From: Sporosarcina sp. P33
GTDB lineage: Bacteria; Bacillota; Bacilli; Bacillales_A; Planococcaceae
NCBI RefSeq assembly: GCF_002077155.1
Contig: NZ_CP015027.1
Location: 866,501 to 930,500 of the forward strand
Direction of reading: 5' to 3'
Length of the DNA stretch: 64,000 bases
The notes below the pieces were generated by a model that saw only the letters and a list, made by a program, of their open reading frames with translations, was not told where the DNA came from and did no database searches. Position 1 is the first letter of the stretch. Each line of letters begins with the position of its first letter. This document shows, piece by piece, positions 39,845 to 47,336 of this stretch. A program made the translations under genes and the position numbers.

Positions 39845-40036
39845 TTACATATCCATTCTCGTCATTTCATTAATAAAGTTCTCCTGCTCCACGTTCTCAT
39901 GAAGCAAGCGCATCATCGCTTCTTGCTGCGCGCAAATCAGCGTATCCTGCGCCTGATAAACATCCAGTAGTAGTTGTTTAAGATCACCAGGTGCTTTATC
40001 TCTCTCCAAATGCTGTACCAAATCCAAGGCATACAC
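39845..40036 (-). CDS. Hypothetical phage protein, 63 residues
   Basis: A helical acidic peptide (LVQHLERDKAPGDLKQLLLDVYQAQDTLICAQQEAMMRLL). It lies between the XkdX-like and XhlA-like genes in the same direction. No family recognised; codon usage is like its neighbours. The ribosome site (CAGGACG) is weak. Confidence 0.55.
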   Translation of the reverse strand: MYALDLVQHLERDKAPGDLKQLLLDVYQAQDTLICAQQEAMMRLLHENVEQENFINEMTRMDM

Positions 40037-40046
40037 GTCCTGTCAG

Positions 40047-40277
40047 TTATTTCTTTGGTGCTGGTTCCTCCGAAGCTACTGGAGGCTCTTCTACAACCTC
40101 TTCTTCCACAACCGGTTCTTTTTCCGGCTCTGGAACAGGTTCTTCTTTGACGGGGTCAAATAGCTCTCCGGTGATGCGCTCGAAATCCTCTTTTGCGAGC
40201 TCGCCTAATTTAGTGGCAAGCCGTAGCTGGTCGGCTGTGGCCCATCCCCAGCCGTATGCGAGTTCCCAATATGTCAT
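40047..40277 (-). CDS. XkdX-like protein with acidic Pro/Glu tail
   Basis: 76 residues. The first 45 (TYWELAYGWGWATADQLRLATKLGELAKEDFERITGE) match XkdX proteins, short tail-associated peptides placed after tail fibre genes in Bacillus prophages. The C-terminal 30 residues are an unusual Glu/Pro/Val repeat (EPVPEPEKEPVVEEEVVEEPP). Function of XkdX is not known. It overlaps the coiled-coil gene by 4 nt. Confidence 0.75.
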   Translation of the reverse strand: MTYWELAYGWGWATADQLRLATKLGELAKEDFERITGELFDPVKEEPVPEPEKEPVVEEEVVEEPPVASEEPAPKK

Positions 40278-40486
40278 TGTGATGCAGCCCCTTCCAATTG
40301 TTTTACTTTGATTTTCAATTCCGTGAGTTCTTTACCCAGCTGCTGAATCATGACGTCCTTCTGAGCGTTTTTCAGCATCTCTTGTGTCAGGGAGGCGCCC
40401 AGCTGCTTGAGCTGAGCATCCTTTGCCTGTTCTGACTGTTCTTTCCTGCGCACTTCGTCGAGCGGCGTGCGGTTAATCCATTGCAT
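40274..40486 (-). CDS. Coiled-coil phage protein, 70 residues
   Basis: Almost entirely a predicted coiled coil (QLKQLGASLTQEMLKNAQKD, MIQQLGKELTELKIKVKQLE). ATG after AAGGAGTGATGACAC, 14 nt past the retroelement target gene. It may oligomerise with the tail tip, but no family is known to me. Confidence 0.6.
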   Translation of the reverse strand: MQWINRTPLDEVRRKEQSEQAKDAQLKQLGASLTQEMLKNAQKDVMIQQLGKELTELKIKVKQLEGAASQ

Positions 40487-40499
40487 GTGTCATCACTCC

Positions 40500-42944
40500 T
40501 TAGTCAAATGTAAGACCGTCAGCCGAGATGCTGATTGGATCCATTGAGTCGTTAGCTTTAATCGTCACGCGGTAGCCAATCGCAAAGTCAGATGCTGTCT
40601 TGGTCTCGTTGGTAAAGTCGTAATAATCCATCGCCAAAAACTTGGCTGTGCCGTCCTCCCATGTTGGGGAGACATCCAAGGCGTTATTGGCAAACTCCAC
40701 TTTAACTGTCGCTTTTGTCGTGCCGTCAGTCGGCAGTTGCAAATCGGCGGCGAATAGGATTCTGCGAGCGGCCACACTGCCCGTATTGATAGGCGTCTTG
40801 TTTTTGTAGATCAACTCATCGCCCGCGCGAATCCGGCGCACTCCTGACCATTCCCCGCGCGCTCCGGTGCTTGCATCGACTGCGGCCATGCGCCAGTAGT
40901 ACGTTTTGTTACGATCCAGGTCTGCCTGCATGGTATAGGCGACATTTTGTCCTTGCTGGTCGTTTTTGACGCCTGCAGTCGGGATGTCATAGCCATTTAC
41001 CTGCCAGCCTGTCCGGTCCGTCTCGCTCGACTTTTCATAGGCGTATGTCGCAAACGTCGGGTCGGTCGAAATCTGCATCCGGAAATGCATGCCGTCGTTT
41101 TCCGGATCCGTGCCGACGATACCGATCAGCGTCGGGCGGAGTGTCGTCCGGTAGTTGTCGACTGGGCCTGTCAGGATGGGTGCGGATGGCGTTGCATTAG
41201 TGCGGAAGTATGCACGATCGCTGTTTTTGCTCAATCCGTTCGGGTCCCAAACGGTCACGACCGTGTAATATTCTGCGCCTTCTAGCAACCGCCCCTGCGG
41301 CACCTGGTGCTTTTTCACGGCCTGATTGACGCGGGAACTGTCATAAGCGAGCGCATCATCGGCCAGCTTGTAGATGCGCACTTGATAGCCTGCCTGCGCT
41401 TCAAGATCGAGATCCTCGAAATCCCATGTTACTTCGGGATTCAGCGAAGCTCCCGCAGGCGCTTCGGCGTTATTGCTTCCCGGCTGCACGTTGCTAACGT
41501 TCGGCGGCCGATTTGGCATGAACCACTGCGCAAATGAATATTCGGACGGCACATCGTAGCGATCCCATACGCGGACCTTCCAGGACAGTCTGTCTCCCCA
41601 TTTGGCGACGGATGTAGGCAACTGGTAAAACGACTGCGTGGATACTTTTTTGCCGCTGTCGTGCACTACCTCGTCCTGCTGATTGTTGATGACGTACTGA
41701 TAAGCCGATTGGCTGTCACCAGTGTCCGGATCCGTAAACTTGTGCACGAAGATCGGCGTCAGCGTATCGACGATGGCAAGATTGCTCAGGTCGCCCTTCG
41801 GCTCGACCGCGGTCGCCGAAGGGGCTGCATTGACCTTGACGAATGTAATCATCCGGGTCGACTTCGCACCTTTGCTTTCCGTCGCTTCGATCGTGATGCT
41901 GGATGTTTCGTTGAGCGGGAGCGTGGCCCATTGTTCGCTAGTCAACGTGATGGTTCGGTTCACGCCTTGCGTGACGTTTGTTTCGGTCTTGATTGTTGTA
42001 CCGTTGAGTTTTTCGACAATCGATACTGCGTCATTTTCAGGGTCTGAAACTTGGTAATCCACTGAAAAAGGCGCTGTTTTATTTCCTAGTGTCGTATTTG
42101 GCCCTGTGATGTTTGGGGCTTGATTAAACTCCAGGATATACGCGCCGTCCGTGTCCGGCGCGTCGGATACGGCAAGGCCGGATGGTAAATTCAAAGCGGG
42201 GCGGACGCCGCTGTAGCCATTGTACGCGCTGACGACGCTGAGCGACCCATCCGAGATCACGAGGCGCACGTAGCTCGCGTTGCCGGCGCTCGGGGTGCGT
42301 AGCCACCAATACCACAGTTTCGCCGCCGTCAAATTAGCATTTGTGTAGTTTGAAGCGCTCACGGCTTGCGCCGTAGGATTTGCCTGCCGGCTGGCGTCAC
42401 TCGTGAAGAGCGGCCACTTGGATCCCTCTGCCACTCCGCCCTCGTTTGCCAAACCTACCTCCGTGGTAGATGGCAGGAATACCTTGTCCGATGTCGTCTC
42501 GGTTCCTCCGCCGTCGACAGACGCTTTAACGACGGTCAGGTTGGTAGGCAGGATGGCATCGATAAATTCCTGCGCGAAACCGGATAAAAAGCCCACTTCT
42601 GTGTCGTAAGGGTTGTAACTGACGTTTGCGGTGTTAGGCGCCTGGTCTGCACTGTGCTGCGCGCTGTACCAACCAGTTCCCTTTTTGTTGAGCCATTGCC
42701 GCATATTAGATTGGTTGTATCGGTTGTTCCCGTAACTACGTCGGTCCGCATTGCTGCTTGCCGGCTCCTTAGCATCAAATGCTTTGATGGATAAGATGCG
42801 CTCCGTAATAAACGTAGTGGAGCCTGCCGGGTAACCCGGATGATTTTGCGCGCCGACCTGCAACACAATTGGTTGCCCGTTGTATTTAGATGCCGGATGT
42901 TTGACTTTCGTGCCGATAGGTAAGTCAGAAAGCTTTTTAGCCAT
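40500..42944 (-). CDS. DGR target protein: N-terminal DUF6273 variable domain plus Ig/FN3-like domains (tail tip/fibre)
   Basis: 814 residues from ATG 42944; its ribosome site GAGGAG is inside the last codons of the reverse transcriptase gene and the ATG is 4 nt after that stop. Residues 1-265 form a DUF6273-type domain, a C-type-lectin-like scaffold, with VFLPSTTEVG, WYWWLRTPS and GVRPALNLPSG. The 100-bp variable repeat encodes residues 217-250 in its core. Residues about 275-740 hold about four Ig/FN3-like domains (repeated PxxxGP..., DPENDxxxxxxxxS, YYWRxAAVD motifs), and the last 75 residues form another beta domain. By position after gpI-type baseplate genes it is probably the receptor-binding protein. 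Eleven residues differ from the template, all at adenine-containing codons. Confidence 0.92.
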   Translation of the reverse strand: MAKKLSDLPIGTKVKHPASKYNGQPIVLQVGAQNHPGYPAGSTTFITERILSIKAFDAKEPASSNADRRSYGNNRYNQSNMRQWLNKKGTGWYSAQHSADQAPNTANVSYNPYDTEVGFLSGFAQEFIDAILPTNLTVVKASVDGGGTETTSDKVFLPSTTEVGLANEGGVAEGSKWPLFTSDASRQANPTAQAVSASNYTNANLTAAKLWYWWLRTPSAGNASYVRLVISDGSLSVVSAYNGYSGVRPALNLPSGLAVSDAPDTDGAYILEFNQAPNITGPNTTLGNKTAPFSVDYQVSDPENDAVSIVEKLNGTTIKTETNVTQGVNRTITLTSEQWATLPLNETSSITIEATESKGAKSTRMITFVKVNAAPSATAVEPKGDLSNLAIVDTLTPIFVHKFTDPDTGDSQSAYQYVINNQQDEVVHDSGKKVSTQSFYQLPTSVAKWGDRLSWKVRVWDRYDVPSEYSFAQWFMPNRPPNVSNVQPGSNNAEAPAGASLNPEVTWDFEDLDLEAQAGYQVRIYKLADDALAYDSSRVNQAVKKHQVPQGRLLEGAEYYTVVTVWDPNGLSKNSDRAYFRTNATPSAPILTGPVDNYRTTLRPTLIGIVGTDPENDGMHFRMQISTDPTFATYAYEKSSETDRTGWQVNGYDIPTAGVKNDQQGQNVAYTMQADLDRNKTYYWRMAAVDASTGARGEWSGVRRIRAGDELIYKNKTPINTGSVAARRILFAADLQLPTDGTTKATVKVEFANNALDVSPTWEDGTAKFLAMDYYDFTNETKTASDFAIGYRVTIKANDSMDPISISADGLTFD
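42149..42172 (-). other. Inverted repeat downstream of the variable repeat
   Basis: On the coding strand CCGTATCCG-ACGCGC-CGGACACGG forms a 9-bp stem with one mismatch and a 6-nt loop, inside the target gene, 25 bp past the end of the variable repeat. DGRs with a hairpin or cruciform just downstream of the repeat are known, where it stimulates retrohoming. The distance is longer than in Bordetella phage, so the role is tentative. Confidence 0.4.
42197..42296 (-). repeat. DGR variable repeat (VR)
   Basis: 100 bp aligned without gaps to the template at 44131-44230. There are 14 differences: 13 are template A to G, T or C-equivalent changes on the coding strand and one is T to C (AAT to AAC, synonymous). 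The 3' 13 bp (GGCGTCCGCCCCG) are identical and GC-rich, which fits an initiation-of-mutagenic-homology site. In frame from residue 217 of the target. Confidence 0.95.
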
Positions 42945-42948
42945 TTTG

Positions 42949-43971
42949 TCACTCCTCAAATATTGCGTCATAGTATTTCTGCATGTTTTTGATCAAGTAA
43001 TAGGTGTCGCCGTGTTTGGCGTGACCGACCCAGCTATTCCAGGAGTGGTCGATCTCCTCTTTCGTGATTTTCCCTTCACGGTATAGCTCTTTGAATTTCT
43101 TAAGCTTTCGCCGCATCGACTCTTTGCTTTCGCGTCGCAGCTTCATGATGATTTTTCCAGTGTCAGTCGAATAAAAATGAAAGCCGAGAAAATCAAAACC
43201 GTTCTTGATCGGGAAGATGTGAGTTTTCTGATTAAGTTGAAGGTCTAAATCCTGCAGCAGAAACTCGATTTCTTTCTTGCAATACTGCAAGTATTCTTTG
43301 TCTGGATCGATTAAAATGAAATCGTCCATGTAGCGCAGATAGCACTTAATGCGCAACGTCTCCTTGATGTAGTGATCAAAGGCGCTCAAAAAGATCAACG
43401 AAAAAAGCTGACTCGTTTGATTGCCAAGCGGCAACCCCGAACCAGCTGTACTGTCTATGATTTTTACAAGCAACTCATAAACGCGGTCATCCTTGACCAA
43501 TCGTCTGACGATCACTTTCAATTTTTCGTGATCGATAGAGTCGAAATACTTCTCGATATCGCACTTTAACACGTACCCCTCAAGACCGTAACGACTGTAG
43601 TGATAACGCATATATTCCTTGGTCCGGTCAATCGCGGCATGCACACCTTTATTCTTCCGGCAGGCGTAATTATCATAGATGAAATGTTGCTCGAAAGTAG
43701 GCGTCAGAATGTTGTCGCAGAGACTACGCTGCACTACCTTATCTTTAAATTTAATGCTTTTTATTATGCGGGGCTTCGGGTGATAAATATGAAAGAGATT
43801 GTATCCGCTCAGTTCATACTGTCCTTTGATCAACTCCTCACGTAATAGCCAGGTGTTGTACAAAGCGTCTTGCTGATATAAAGCGGTCGAATTCTTCCAA
43901 CCTTTCCCCTTTTTGCACGCCAAATAGGCGTCATATAAATTGTTAAAATCACATAGCTGTTCGTAATTCAA
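42949..43971 (-). CDS. Diversity-generating retroelement reverse transcriptase
   Basis: 340 residues from TTG 43971, 7 nt after AGGAGG (a longer frame to 44007 has no ribosome site). Reverse transcriptase motifs: KCDIEKYFDSI (about residue 137, first catalytic Asp), LPLGNQTSQLFS (about 181-191; the GxxxSQ form is the DGR hallmark in place of GxxxSP), RYMDDFILI (214-217 catalytic YMDD), and FLGFHF. Small, without maturase or endonuclease domains, as for DGR enzymes. It copies the template RNA with errors at adenines. The template lies 160 bp upstream; the target gene follows with a translational overlap of signals. Confidence 0.96.
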   Translation of the reverse strand: MNYEQLCDFNNLYDAYLACKKGKGWKNSTALYQQDALYNTWLLREELIKGQYELSGYNLFHIYHPKPRIIKSIKFKDKVVQRSLCDNILTPTFEQHFIYDNYACRKNKGVHAAIDRTKEYMRYHYSRYGLEGYVLKCDIEKYFDSIDHEKLKVIVRRLVKDDRVYELLVKIIDSTAGSGLPLGNQTSQLFSLIFLSAFDHYIKETLRIKCYLRYMDDFILIDPDKEYLQYCKKEIEFLLQDLDLQLNQKTHIFPIKNGFDFLGFHFYSTDTGKIIMKLRRESKESMRRKLKKFKELYREGKITKEEIDHSWNSWVGHAKHGDTYYLIKNMQKYYDAIFEE

Positions 43972-44130
43972 AAAAATCCTCCTACCGCTGATAGCTCGCG
44001 CATCCAATAGGCGTTTGCGTCAGTAGTCTTGTTTTCGCGTATTTCACGCAGGATACGATCTCCTTTGAAATGACTTGTACCTTTGTTCGGCCGCTCTCGC
44101 AGCTTACTACGTTTCGGCAGTATCTCAAGT

Positions 44131-44230
44131 CGGGGCGGACGCCGTTGTTGCCATTGTACGCGTTGTTGTTGTTGAGCGACCCATCCGAGTTCACGTGGCG
44201 CACGTTGTTCGCATTGCCGGCGTTCGGGGT
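44131..44230 (-). repeat. DGR template repeat (TR)
   Basis: 100 bp between the Avd-like gene and the reverse transcriptase. The coding-strand phase has ten AAC codons, including four in a row, the classic design for adenine mutagenesis. It starts 22 bp after the Avd stop. It is non-coding in effect: the open frame across it is a by-product of its origin from the target gene. The RNA probably spans to the reverse transcriptase start. Confidence 0.95.
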
Positions 44231-44252
44231 TGTCAGATCGTACCCTATGTTG

Positions 44253-44666
44253 TTATTTGTACCGCTCTTTATCGCTCCGGTGCCAGCTGGTAGCTGTCTT
44301 GCGGGTATCAGCCATCAGATAGCTCCAGTGTTTTAATTCCTTGTCATTGATGTATCCTCGGTGTCTGGATAGCCGTATTAAAAAGTCAAGTTCTTTCAGA
44401 TGGGTGATCGCCAGCCTTTGCAGTTCCAATCTACGCTCTATTTGCTCACGGTTAAGCGGGAAAATTTCGTTAGCGTGCAACAGATTGTGATATACATCAA
44501 GTGATAGATCGACAATGCGGTTGGTCAAAGTAAAACGCAACTTCTTGGGAAACGTATCATTTTTATTCGTGACCACCATTGTGTAATCGATAAACTTTTC
44601 AGTTTTCAGCAGAAAGGTCATTTCCCCATCTGCGCGTGTTCTTTTTACATTACTACGCCGGTTCAC
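44253..44666 (-). CDS. avd: DGR accessory variability determinant (Avd-like four-helix protein)
   Basis: 137 residues from GTG 44666, which overlaps the previous stop as GTGA; ATG 44621 (GATGGGGAA upstream) is the alternative and would give 122 residues. The helical pattern LLKTEKFIDYTMVVTNKND, FPKKLRFTLTNRIVDLSLDVYHNLLHANEI, LQRLAITHLKELDFLIRLSRHRGYIN and LMADTRKTATSW fits the four-helix Avd/bAvd family. Avd forms a basic pentameric barrel that binds the reverse transcriptase and RNA. The N-terminal Arg/Lys-rich extension and position before the template support this. Confidence 0.88.
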   Translation of the reverse strand: MNRRSNVKRTRADGEMTFLLKTEKFIDYTMVVTNKNDTFPKKLRFTLTNRIVDLSLDVYHNLLHANEIFPLNREQIERRLELQRLAITHLKELDFLIRLSRHRGYINDKELKHWSYLMADTRKTATSWHRSDKERYK

Positions 44667-45034
44667 GGTAGATAAATCTTTCTTAAATCCGAATCGTACG
44701 CACCGGCAATCAAGTCCACGCCGTCCAGATCCTCAAAGTTGTTGGAGCCGATGTTCGCGACTACTCCGCTCGTGACGGCCGCCTGCAGGAGCAGGAAGCT
44801 AAAGCGCAGGTTTTTCATCGTCCGATCCGACTCTTCGACGAAATCGACAATTTGGTTGAGCCGTTCATGCGCAGACTTCGAACTCTGCTCCAACTTGTTC
44901 CCGCGCCGGGCGGTAAACTTGGTGCCCGGGTGACTGTTGTCGCCCTCCGGATCTACCACCTTGTCATACCAGGTTGTCGGATTGTACGTCTGCTTGGCAG
45001 CGATCAAATCCTTAATATCAATGATTTCAGCCAT
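44663..45034 (-). CDS. Phage tail-associated protein, 123 residues
   Basis: ATG after AAGGAAGGTG, overlapping the previous gene by 8 nt. Starts AEIIDIKDLIAAKQTYNPTTWYDKVVDPEGDN, includes a Gly-Thr-Lys patch and a helix (AHERLNQIVDFVEESDRTMKNLRFSFLLLQ) and ends with VDLIAGAYDSDLRKIYLP. Such proteins sit at the start of tail fibre loci and could be an N-terminal baseplate-attachment fibre piece. No firm family. It couples translationally to the Avd gene. Confidence 0.6.
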   Translation of the reverse strand: MAEIIDIKDLIAAKQTYNPTTWYDKVVDPEGDNSHPGTKFTARRGNKLEQSSKSAHERLNQIVDFVEESDRTMKNLRFSFLLLQAAVTSGVVANIGSNNFEDLDGVDLIAGAYDSDLRKIYLP

Positions 45035-45356
45035 TCAATTCACCTTCCTTTTTATCAAGCGAGACAAATACCTTAAAAGCAAACTGCCAGCCTTCGTCAC
45101 CTTTTTCGATGATTCCCTCACCGATTGCAAGAGGTATATTATTTTCATTGACGAGTACCGTCCTCTCGATGTCCCCGATTGGCTCATCCTCTACTTCGAT
45201 GTAATGCTTAAAAAAGCCGTCTCGCTCGACGGTCTTCGTGATTGGGTATTCGTAATCCTCGCCCGCAATGGTGACAATCGCTTTTTTCGCAATCGTCGCG
45301 GCTAAGCGCCGGACTTCGTCTACCCAAAAATCCTGTATCTCATAAGTGTGGCTCAC
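45027..45356 (-). CDS. Phage baseplate/tail protein, 109 residues, unknown
   Basis: GTG start overlapping the gpI-like stop as TAGTG, with GAAGGGGAG upstream. A mostly beta protein (KAIVTIAGEDYEYPITKTVERDG, HYIEVEDEPIGDIERTVLVNENN, WQFAFKVFVSLDKKEGE). The YEYPI motif resembles the Tyr-rich repeats of the neighbouring gpI-like tail. No function is assigned. Confidence 0.6.
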   Translation of the reverse strand: MSHTYEIQDFWVDEVRRLAATIAKKAIVTIAGEDYEYPITKTVERDGFFKHYIEVEDEPIGDIERTVLVNENNIPLAIGEGIIEKGDEGWQFAFKVFVSLDKKEGELNG

Positions 45357-46231
45357 TATTTACTCTCCCCTTCCGCGTAAAACTCCCCGCACACCGGATA
45401 GGGGGCAGGGTAGTTGTATTGATCAAACTGTGTAACGGCGCGGCCTTCCAACTGTGTGAAGCCTTTGGACATGGTCTGCATCTCCCCTGTCGTTGGGTAG
45501 GGGACTTGGTAACCGTAGCTGCCGTTGGTCATATGGACAGGCGGTAGATTCGCCTGCTCGAATGGCTGCTCGTAGACTGGATACTCGACTTGGTAATCGT
45601 AGGAGTCGTCAATTAGTCGGACGGCTCCGAGATCGGCGTGTGTAAATTCTTTTTCACCGCTAAATTCGCCGCAGGTTTTGTAATAGACTGGATAGTCATA
45701 GGAGTCGTCAGTTATTAAAAAATCTCCATTCTGCAAAACGAGAACAAATCCATCGAACCAGCTTCTTTTATTTTTATAATGCAAGACCAGTCTCCTTGCC
45801 GATTCGACCCGGTTTATTTTTTCGTTCACCTGCAGTTCGACTGCGAAATGGTACGGCTCTGATTTTTCCTGAAACCATTCTGTCACTTCGCCCGGCATGT
45901 TGACCGCTTCGAGCGCTCTCTCCACTGCGAACGGGGTTCCCTTGTATCTGTGTAGTTCGATTGACGATTCAAGCAGCTGGGTTTTTTCTTCGAGTGTATC
46001 GGCCAGCAGCAGTCCTTCATCATCCTGAAACACGTGCGCTTCCCACAACAGATGGTCAATCACGCTCTCCGGCAGGTCGTGAAGATTTTCACTGTAATTA
46101 AGTTTGTAAGCAACGACAGAAAAGTCGTTCAGCTTCTCGCTGATTGTCTTGGCCAGATTAAAGACCACCGGATCCTGCAAAAGACTGTCCGGCATTTTAT
46201 CCTGCAGCGTCACCGTTTTTAAATCAATCAT
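45356..46231 (-). CDS. Tail protein I-like baseplate protein with C-terminal Tyr-rich repeats
   Basis: 291 residues from ATG 46231, overlapping gpJ by 8 nt. The first 130 residues match P2 gpI (LPDSLLQDPVVFNLAKTISEKLNDF-type start, LPESVIDHLLWEAHVFQDDEGL, GTPFAVERALEAVNMPGEVTEWF). The rest has about four irregular repeats with a Y-x-Y-x-V/A-x-Y-P core followed by GEF/GEM (DSYDYPVYYKTCGEF, DSYDYQVEYPV, GSYGYQVPYPTTGEM, YNYPAPYPVCGEF). gpI joins the baseplate to the tail fibre, so these repeats may dock the fibre or target protein. Confidence 0.85.
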   Translation of the reverse strand: MIDLKTVTLQDKMPDSLLQDPVVFNLAKTISEKLNDFSVVAYKLNYSENLHDLPESVIDHLLWEAHVFQDDEGLLLADTLEEKTQLLESSIELHRYKGTPFAVERALEAVNMPGEVTEWFQEKSEPYHFAVELQVNEKINRVESARRLVLHYKNKRSWFDGFVLVLQNGDFLITDDSYDYPVYYKTCGEFSGEKEFTHADLGAVRLIDDSYDYQVEYPVYEQPFEQANLPPVHMTNGSYGYQVPYPTTGEMQTMSKGFTQLEGRAVTQFDQYNYPAPYPVCGEFYAEGESK

Positions 46232-47336
46232 CTTCCACACCACCAAACTCGATGTTCACCGTTTGTTCATGCGCGACTTGTCCCTTCGTCACAGTTGTGA
46301 AGATAGGAGAGGGGACTTCGACTCGTTTCGCTCCCGCTCGAATACATTCTGAAATCAACCTGGACGGGTTGATGTCTCTGCCAATTTTCGAGCGCTGCCA
46401 AATGATATATTTTTGTATTGCTTCTTCTACATTTTGCTCGATCAACGCTTTATCCTCAGCTTCGCTCGAAATGAAATAACGTATATCCAAATCATAGTAA
46501 ATGACTTCAGGTGATCCGACGGCCACAAAATCTGTGAGCGGACGCACTTTCTTGCTGCTGAGTTTGGTTCTTACTTTTTCCAAGATTTCTTCTGTTGGTA
46601 ATTCGCCGTTTCGCAATAACACGCCAATGAATATCCTCCCCGGCTCCGGTGTGTCGACAGAGACGTCCAGTATGGCCGCAGACGCTGTTTTCGCATGATA
46701 TTCATACGCACCTTCAGGGCCAGCAGTAGATAGCTGCTCAGGAGATTGTCTGATGCGCTCGCGGTAACTGTCATCATCTTCTCTTTCTGTCCCTCCTGCA
46801 GTTTCCGTGATATTTTCCACCTTTGAGACATACGGCAGCGGGTTAATTAAAGAATCAATTTGCCCAGGCGCTATATCATTACCTATCAAACCTGCGAGGG
46901 TGCACTCCGCTGCCACATCGCCGTACCGCTCGCCTGGCTGTATGACCAAGTCCTTCAGTGTCGCGAAAATCAAGGTAGCATCAGGAGTGATTTCCGTCCC
47001 GGCTTTAATGCTCTTGGCCACGGCCAGCGGCTCCGACAAATGAAACCGTATAGTTGTGCGAGCATGCTCATTGCCAAGTCGGGCGTTATTCCAAGCATAA
47101 CCTTTATGATCTAGCACATTATCCCGCGAATAATATAGCAAAGTCTGTTTGGCTGCGTCGTTCGCCTTGTAAGCCAGCTGCGAATGAAGATCTGCAATAG
47201 CGAGTATAAACAAATAAACCGGATCGGCCTGCGACAGTTTTCTTCCGGCATATTCTTGGTAAGTCGACACGTAGCTGCCAATAATCTTCTCCGGATCTGT
47301 TTCAAAAAATTCCACTTCCGGCAATACAGTTTTCAA
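46224..47336 (-). CDS. Baseplate assembly protein J (gpJ family)
   Basis: 370 residues; TTG start after AGAGGGAGTG. It shows the Baseplate_J pattern: PVYLFILAIADLHSQLAYKANDAAKQTLLYYSRDNVLDHKGYAWN, then beta-rich domains with GTEITPDATLIFAT, GGTEREDDDSYRERI and the C-terminal KRVEVPSP. This forms the baseplate wedge with W and I in contractile tails. It overlaps both neighbouring genes by a few bases. Confidence 0.94.
   Translation of the reverse strand: MKTVLPEVEFFETDPEKIIGSYVSTYQEYAGRKLSQADPVYLFILAIADLHSQLAYKANDAAKQTLLYYSRDNVLDHKGYAWNNARLGNEHARTTIRFHLSEPLAVAKSIKAGTEITPDATLIFATLKDLVIQPGERYGDVAAECTLAGLIGNDIAPGQIDSLINPLPYVSKVENITETAGGTEREDDDSYRERIRQSPEQLSTAGPEGAYEYHAKTASAAILDVSVDTPEPGRIFIGVLLRNGELPTEEILEKVRTKLSSKKVRPLTDFVAVGSPEVIYYDLDIRYFISSEAEDKALIEQNVEEAIQKYIIWQRSKIGRDINPSRLISECIRAGAKRVEVPSPIFTTVTKGQVAHEQTVNIEFGGVEDD

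Follow-up and report, generated by a model that had tools for sequence, protein, structure and literature searches.

The element considered here, a diversity-generating retroelement (DGR) in a prophage of Sporosarcina sp. P33, has its closest described counterparts in phage BPP-1 and in the tentaclins of several other phages. In BPP-1 (gene order mtd-avd-TR-brt), the accessory protein Avd, a template repeat (TR), a spacer and a reverse transcriptase (RT) follow one another, and adenine-directed copying of the template diversifies a variable repeat (VR) in a phage target of lectin fold; its spacer is reported to fold, recruit RT-Avd and supply the priming adenine (PMC12875486). In the tentaclins of nd4, nd12, FP_Toutatis, FP_Mushu and FP_Brigit, the VR lies in an N-terminal DUF6273 domain with immunoglobulin (Ig)-like domains behind it (PMC10743442). 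The Sporosarcina locus was analysed within a window, by which we mean the whole stretch of 64,000 nucleotides (nt; assembly GCF_002077155.1, contig NZ_CP015027.1, 866,501-930,500); all coordinates below, including those of the original prediction made from this DNA, are window positions unless another genome is named. On its minus strand run tail protein I, p109, p123, avd, the TR, a 153-nt spacer, the RT and the target gene, with holin and endolysin further on. Judged by their sequences, avd, TR, RT and a target with its VR are a complete DGR inside the prophage. We consider it likely that template copying directed at adenines diversifies a predicted exposed loop in the lectin-type head of a probable tail fibre, and that avd, TR, spacer, RT and head make up an exchangeable unit. 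At the sequence level this reading is carried by all four parts being present, by the bias towards adenines, by a VR placed within DUF6273, by the covariation among spacers, and by variation in a near-identical head. The parts are:

44253..44666, minus strand: avd, DGR accessory protein of 137 amino acids (aa); phrog_3206, E 1.4e-18
44125..44230, minus strand: TR, 106 nt with 30 adenines; direct repeat D1, with A-biased differences from the VR
43978..44112, minus strand: structured RNA of the TR-RT spacer, predicted to serve RT-Avd as a platform and to prime complementary DNA (cDNA); covariance model R1, 79.1 bits; covariation
42949..43971, minus strand: DGR reverse transcriptase; phrog_1423, E 3.5e-124; motifs LGNQTSQ and YMDD; tree placement
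40500..42944, minus strand: target gene, a tentaclin-like fibre protein of 814 aa; DUF6273, E 2.3e-37; Ig_Rha78A_N, 1.6e-22
42120..42944, minus strand: head A, N-terminal lectin-type domain of the target, residues 1 to about 275; AlphaFold2 model, structure matches, putative co-exchange with the cassette
42191..42296, minus strand: VR, target residues 217-252; repeat search, A-bias against the TR

The original prediction had all four parts intact on one strand, and all were indeed found on the minus strand, in open frames. Its Avd-like helper at 44253-44666 is borne out by the match to phrog_3206, “Avd protein of DGR”; the protein stays below two curated cut-offs (34.3 against 40 bits for Pfam bAvd, 36.9 against 80 for NCBIfam NF033474, DivGenRetAVD) because it is too divergent. 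Both motifs predicted for the RT are present, and its start at TTG 43971 is backed by AGGAGG immediately upstream; the list of open reading frames (ORFs) gives TTG 44007, to which the frame is open. RTs of the DGR lineage carry [LI]GxxxSQ, and group II RTs QGxxxSP. In a tree of 30 RTs, none of them from retrons, the window RT groups, as expected of a DGR, with 21 others, all of them from BPP-1 or from loci that have a TR/VR pair, and is separated from eight group-II-like rows (seven distinct sequences, two of them from the host genome), with support of 100. Against a group II intron or retron type of RT, which would have refuted the original prediction, stand the motif (LGNQTSQ, not QGxxxSP), the tree where group II is concerned, and NCBIfam scores below cut-off: the best model is a group II one at 125 bits against 300, and the retron model reaches 47 against 235. 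A scan of genome contigs with the window RT gave one relative, at 48%. The host genome (G000) has two more RTs, at 2470710-2471510 and 266126-266530, both group-II-like, with motifs QGGPLSP and QGGILSP.

The predicted repeat pair also stands, with a different extent: each copy is 106 nt long (44125-44230 and 42191-42296), rather than running over 44131-44230 and 42197-42296. The pair, 85% identical, came from a blind repeat search of positions 40000-46000, without the A-bias finder applied to relatives, and is one of only two direct-repeat families there, the other consisting of 34-nt units described below. On the coding strand, 14 of the 30 template adenines are changed in the VR, against 2 of the 76 other bases (Fisher p 1.2e-7); the changed adenines appear as G, T or C, and the affected template codons are mostly AAC. 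Both repeats share the A-free, GC-rich end GGCGTCCGCCCCG, after which the TR has GAC and the VR GCT, a difference that accounts for one of the two non-A changes and an adjacent A. Since a congener, G061, shows similar differences (A-to-C and C-to-T) directly after its CGTCCCG, the GAC/GCT step looks like the difference between IMH* and IMH (initiation of mutagenic homing) sites rather than a homing mutation. Relatives were drawn from 92 RT loci: the window, 11 loci chosen earlier and the best 80 of 586, comprising 87 with an RT of the window's type (A) and 5 of a second type (B). Their pooled TR/VR pairs (75 unique among 79 found; 13 loci without a pair) differ at 1038 of 2061 adenines and 20 of 5255 other bases, which is not an unbiased rate: the finder penalises non-A mismatches, and only A-biased pairs were retained for this pool. 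A search of the genome for a second VR gave none above noise, its five matches at E<=10 being the TR, the known VR and three stretches of 14-18 nt.

The VR lies in what is predicted to be the receptor-binding tip of the fibre. DUF6273 covers target residues 42-255, and AlphaFold2 models residues 1-280 with a mean predicted local distance difference test (pLDDT) score of 95.5, with strands at 213-218, 225-229 and 235-239 around the VR; structure matches of this head include C-type-lectin folds. The VR is predicted to code for an exposed loop of the lectin-type head. In a model of the full target, block means of pLDDT are 79-96 from residue 281 on and 24-40 in the head, probably because other heads dominated the alignment. 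The Ig-like domains number about five, counted by eye on the model's strand list, and in the Foldseek rows shown for the whole fibre Ig/Fn3-type proteins predominate, with TM-scores no higher than about 0.2. The sequence layout, a VR within an N-terminal lectin-type domain (DUF6273) with Ig-like domains behind, is thus near that of the published “tentaclin.”

Variation at the protein level follows the template. The target homologues considered are the best 120 of 2727, 75 of them tabulated. In P0040, which has a head 89% identical to the window's on a different shaft, 10 of the 17 adenine-addressed residues (those whose template codon has an A at position 1 or 2) differ, against 1 of 18 other residues of the VR and 19 of 233 outside it; addressed residues against all others (20 of 251) gives a Fisher p of 8e-7. 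The same excess is seen in four more distant heads, with 11 to 14 of 17 addressed residues changed (p 0.006 or less). The A-biased changes that the original prediction expected of the VR in relatives are thereby found in the encoded proteins.

Head-A domains also occur in other arrangements. Among the best 120 homologues, 17 carry them in tandem, two or three to a protein: P0018 (with three), P0053, P0054, P0055, P0057, P0058, P0059, P0060, P0061, P0062, P0063, P0064, P0065, P0066, P0068, P0072 and P0076. In P0044, a type-B head (see below) is followed by a type-A head on one fibre. In Bacillus phage AR9 (L054, 3995-8311), a relative of head A (46% over residues 5-273), also present in PBS1 and others, forms the beginning of a PKD-repeat protein of 1438 aa that is encoded beside virion protein genes.

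Further parts of the locus are the fibre shaft, an inverted repeat and the genes at the other side of the cassette:

40503..42137, minus strand: fibre shaft, target residues 270-814, Ig-like domains; common to prophages with other heads
42140..42163, minus strand: perfect 8-bp inverted repeat with an 8-nt loop, a possible homing hairpin, 27 nt past the VR and within the coding sequence
44663..45034, minus strand: p123, gene at the upstream edge of the cassette, with a 4-nt avd overlap; 55-62% identity in four B-type loci
45027..45356, minus strand: p109, co-inherited with p123 and shaft; 45-65% identity in four B-type loci
45356..46246, minus strand: tail protein I; PF09684, 1.5e-20

Two prophages of the congener G022, at 1.23 and 2.98 Mb, have shafts 69 and 64% identical to the window's, together with p123 (57 and 61%) and p109 (58 and 55%). 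Both carry a head without BLAST similarity to the window head (type B, phrog_36643), a different Avd, and an RT only 31-34% identical to that of the window; both are DGRs, their TR/VR pairs differing at 11 of 19 and 11 of 25 adenines and at no other base. The IMG/VR loci L059 and L060 repeat this pattern of a kept shaft with type-B head and cassette, and P0003 has head B on a shaft 85% identical to the window's. In G061, the head, RT and Avd are 62, 54 and 37% identical to those of the window, and no match was found to the window shaft, p123 or p109. Comparison of the window with four B loci shows p123 and the shaft retained as flanks of a divergent stretch that takes in avd, TR, RT and head. 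In the window and in L046, that stretch opens where avd and the p123 stop overlap (by 4 nt) and closes where the head does.

Heads on 57 shafts were of type B in 45 cases (L045, L046 and other near-copies included), of type A in 3, of both types in 1 and of other kinds in 8, one of these headless. In a shaft tree of 55 of these rows (L045 and L046 being omitted as copies of P0016 and P0013), the three A heads stand at three places, two of them nested among B heads with support of 99 or more, and grouping the three together is rejected by the approximately unbiased (AU) test (p 3.5e-35) on 51 rows, from which four more were left out: P0044, L053 and L064 for their long branches, and the headless P0027, whose shaft is identical to that of L060. 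These separate places suggest that head and cassette were exchanged together, so that avd-TR-RT-head has probably moved en bloc on a kept shaft. None of the 92 RT loci was seen to combine head A with RT B or head B with RT A; a head-A match is present in 63 of the 87 RT-A loci, an upper bound, since tblastn matches anywhere on the plus strand were counted and some may be the TR itself.

The position of the VR fits such an exchange. Among 67 complete targets (8 incomplete ORFs of 75 excluded), an N-terminal VR goes with a place downstream of the RT in 45 of 46 cases, and a C-terminal VR with an upstream one in 17 of 18, with 3 intermediate cases set aside (p 2e-13, kinship among loci ignored); short targets with a C-terminal VR are among those of the RT-A clade. 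The VR of these loci thus faces the RT machinery, as it does in BPP-1, and we suggest that an N-terminal VR is explained by keeping machinery and head contiguous. Separately, the region of the G022 prophage at 1.23 Mb (1192501-1262500; L157, L051, L046 and L050) has fibre genes in common with the window and no detectable head genes. From such gene content, the fibre module itself seems to pass between phages that are not related. Three 34-nt repeats, 68-79% alike, lie within the C-terminal half of tail protein I (45498-45714), and the fibre may attach to the C-terminal part of this protein.

The spacer between TR and RT appears to be a conserved structured RNA. Twenty spacers of the RT-A clade, chosen for a TR-RT distance of about 95-145 nt, align into six helices in which 94.1% of cells pair (75.9 in shuffles, at most 46.7 when slid); 18 of 22 pairs have changed on both sides, with 92 compensated cells against 28.6 in shuffles and 0 of 500 shuffles as high. 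The covariance model built from them, R1, scores 79.1 bits on the window, which is itself a training row. It matched 69 of 69 held-out RT-A-clade loci, which include near-copies of training rows (L089 of L088 and L079 of L078, for example) and 13 loci without a TR/VR pair by the finder, and at E<=0.1 none of 18 other sources gave a match, these being 6 type-B loci, 3 RT-less fibre loci, BPP-1, 2 other host RT loci and 6 group II loci. All 70 matches (60 distinct), fitted to the model, show 85.5% pairing and 188 compensated cells against 61.5 in shuffles. In the 54 held-out loci with a TR, the match starts 9-22 nt past it in 53 and 74 nt past it in one, and 52 matches lie inside the spacer, those of L148 and L150 extending a few bases further into the RT. 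Among 68 genomes of the genus R1 finds two, the window genome and G061, which are the two with an RT of the RT-A clade; among 299 genomes of the phylum it again finds two, the window genome and G336, where the match is flanked by a stretch that looks TR-like by eye and by an RT of DGR type.

Two RNA families of Rfam, RT-2 (RF03077) and RT-9 (RF03080), resemble this RNA in their location: whenever either was seen, it was in the spacer that separates TR and RT in a DGR. The RT-n families are said to go back to work by Weinberg in 2017; a literature search over titles and the starts of abstracts turned up no link of RT-2 or RT-9 to DGRs. RT-9, sought only in loci already known as DGRs, occupies this spacer in all three type-B loci given (78-82 bits). 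RT-2 does so above its gathering score of 40 bits in 1 of the 23 type-A loci given (L081, 42.2 bits), and stays below it in G336 (37.3 bits) and in the window, which differs from the family to that extent (43960-44121, 23.7 bits); a scan of 398 genomes of the phylum gave one RT-2 match, below the gathering score. The spacer of L052 had no Rfam match at E<=1. A core motif written post hoc is carried by 32 of the 67 spacers of type A, by all 5 of type B and by 2 of 2575 control windows, and is not found in BPP-1; the motif offers a suggestion that type-A and type-B spacers share an origin. Elsewhere in the target gene, an Rfam match to Toga_5_CRE (40759-40826) was taken as chance, at 23.8 bits against a gathering score of 120.

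If the locus works as BPP-1 does, transcription would run through avd, TR and spacer; the spacer RNA (43978-44112) would recruit RT and Avd and prime cDNA synthesis, much like its BPP-1 counterpart, most simply from one of the unpaired adenines that are invariant in the model; the template RNA would be reverse-transcribed with adenine-directed errors; and the mutated cDNA would replace the VR. The altered head would then bind a host surface receptor, while the C-terminal end of the Ig shaft would be anchored to the tail, aided by p109, p123 and tail protein I. Judging by the trees and by which genes are kept, everything from avd through TR, spacer RNA and RT to the head would be one exchangeable unit between p123 and shaft: with the VR on the RT side of the target, close to its 5′ end, one recombination per side could swap the machinery together with its matched head.

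Several observations given in this paragraph and the next weigh against one or another part of this scheme. One possibility is that the DGR is intact in sequence but silent or decayed, the VR having been diversified formerly and now being fixed in the lysogen: 16 of the 30 template adenines are unchanged in the VR, Avd is under two curated cut-offs, and the sole near-identical contig (IMG/VR L029/L058, possibly from the same isolate) is identical over 13 kb, VR included; the related Faecalibacterium phage Lelie is described in PMC11792537 as having no variation peak in reads. Yet the RT retains its motifs, the frames are open, compensating changes have preserved the spacer RNA across the clade, and head homologues vary at the residues addressed, which makes silence or decay unlikely. 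The hairpin past the VR, required in BPP-1, is not clearly conserved in relatives: stems of at least 6 bp occur there in 24 of 74 loci against 15% of control windows, a weak excess, and the mean best stem is 4.77 over the 74 loci against 4.53 in control windows. A different doubt concerns the spacer RNA, whose predicted folding energy in the window is not unusual (z -0.20). R1 does not match the BPP-1 spacer (its best match there is on the wrong strand, at 3.6 bits), and it finds type-B spacers at chance level only, none at E<=0.1: with filters off, 4 of 5 type-B loci have a match of 12-16 bits in the expected position, but a chance match in L045 reaches 14.0, and in L060 the spacer scores 6.2 bits against 15.9 for a match mostly within the RT gene. 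The RNA might instead control translation of the RT message, given that it ends at the RT ribosome-binding site, with a closing helix (CUACUG/CGGUAG in the window) that adjoins AGGAGG. Its start, so regularly placed just past the TR (53 of 54 held-out loci), and the recruitment and priming reported for the BPP-1 spacer (PMC12875486) make it very improbable that this is its role in place of one in reverse transcription; the two roles are in any case mutually compatible.

Where on the virion the target sits, and whether head and machinery travel together, are the other points on which the scheme could fail. The best PHROGs match of the target is phrog_10993, “Hoc-like head decoration” (2.3e-119), and Ig domains with a presumed C-terminal anchoring recall Hoc, as discussed for tentaclins in PMC10743442, so that the protein could be a capsid decoration that diversifies surface adhesion. 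The window has genes for both parts of the particle: tail sheath, tape measure, baseplate, portal, terminase, protease and major head genes mark it, by their sequences, as a contractile-tailed prophage. The G022 prophage at 2.98 Mb shares head as well as tail genes with it (terminase 28%, portal 23%, sheath 42%, most tail genes 25-47%; no relative of the window protease or major head protein), every one of them lower in identity than the shaft (64%), and by itself cannot separate the shaft from the head genes. The prophage at 1.23 Mb, by contrast, keeps shaft, p123, p109 and the C-terminal part of tail protein I (residues 167-295, with the repeats), and tblastn over 70 kb found there no relative of the window terminase, portal, protease, major head protein or sheath; moreover, the target gene has tail protein I on one side and the lysis genes on the other, and the shaft relative of Brevibacillus phage Emery, gp25, occupies the same slot after the baseplate genes. 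Fibre genes kept without this phage's head genes, and the slot in Emery, favour a tail fibre anchored by its C-terminal end, in which case the PHROGs label would be misleading, and a capsid decoration seems improbable. The original prediction placed the target “almost certainly” at the tail tip: the slot between tail protein I and the lysis genes agrees with that, but a certainty of this order does not follow, and we would call the tail location probable. It could likewise be that heads recombine alone and that RT and head types co-occur through sampling or shared descent. P0002, P0003, P0004 and P0040 are known by head and shaft and not by RT, 80 of the 92 loci were fetched by closeness to RT-A-led queries and only 5 have RT B, and shafts with other heads exist (8 of 57, one headless), as does P0044 with both head types; besides, a single A head stands on only three shaft rows, and 24 of the 87 RT-A loci are without a head-A match, these having neither head, so that the RT-A clade must serve other targets too. 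The complete absence of mixed RT and head types, and a differing stretch that spans avd, TR, RT and head between a kept p123 and a kept shaft, nevertheless leave exchange of heads alone rather unlikely.

Diversification of a tail-fibre head by a DGR that can be exchanged with it is therefore the reading we retain. A bolder version, towards which we lean only slightly, would make the DGRs of the RT-A clade plug-in cartridges (avd, TR, spacer RNA, RT and matched head) on a common shaft, replacing other cartridges or plain heads, with the VR at the RT-facing end of the target keeping the cartridge whole; R1, RT-2 and RT-9 would then be one ancient RNA family, a reverse-transcription platform across head types. 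A DGR is in itself ordinary for phages, and the interest of this one lies in the exchange pattern and the RNA. R1 serves as a marker that finds DGRs of the RT-A clade without sight of RT, TR or VR, and its comparison with RT-2 and RT-9, known only as RNA names, suggests that these are DGR parts. No account of DGR cassette exchange turned up in a title-level literature search. The receptor-binding head would change on two scales, by adenine-directed point diversification and by wholesale exchange of DGR and head on a kept shaft.

Set beside the known systems, the locus shares with BPP-1 the order of Avd, TR, spacer and RT, the direction of change at adenines and a lectin-fold target. It differs in the placing of target and VR: in BPP-1 the target precedes avd and has its VR at the 3′ end, and in the window the target comes after the RT and has its VR close to the 5′ end. 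The two RTs are only distantly related, and the spacers are not linked by R1. Emery resembles the window in its gp25, 34% identical over residues 378-814, and differs in having no RT match in the 13-kb stretch, no head A or B and no R1 match. The tentaclins are close to it in target layout; they are described as having an N-terminal lectin-type domain that bears a hypermutated hairpin, and a C-terminal Ig domain marked by a seven-residue consensus (PMC10743442). The C-terminal stretch of nd12 target1 is related to that of the window target (33% identity, residues 733-814, E 3.5e-10), and nd12 and FP_Toutatis have the order Avd-TR-RT-target; nd4 and nd12 differ from the window in having a second target. 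Phage tentaclins, as given in PMC10743442, are 313-649 aa long with one to four Ig-like domains, against 814 aa and about five in the window, which is why its target is called tentaclin-like here; longer tentaclin-like proteins, mostly bacterial, are also mentioned there. The window target departs from the tentaclins, too, in a shaft common to phages with other heads, and the comparison argues that tentaclin-like proteins, whose place in the virion has so far been unclear, belong to the tail.

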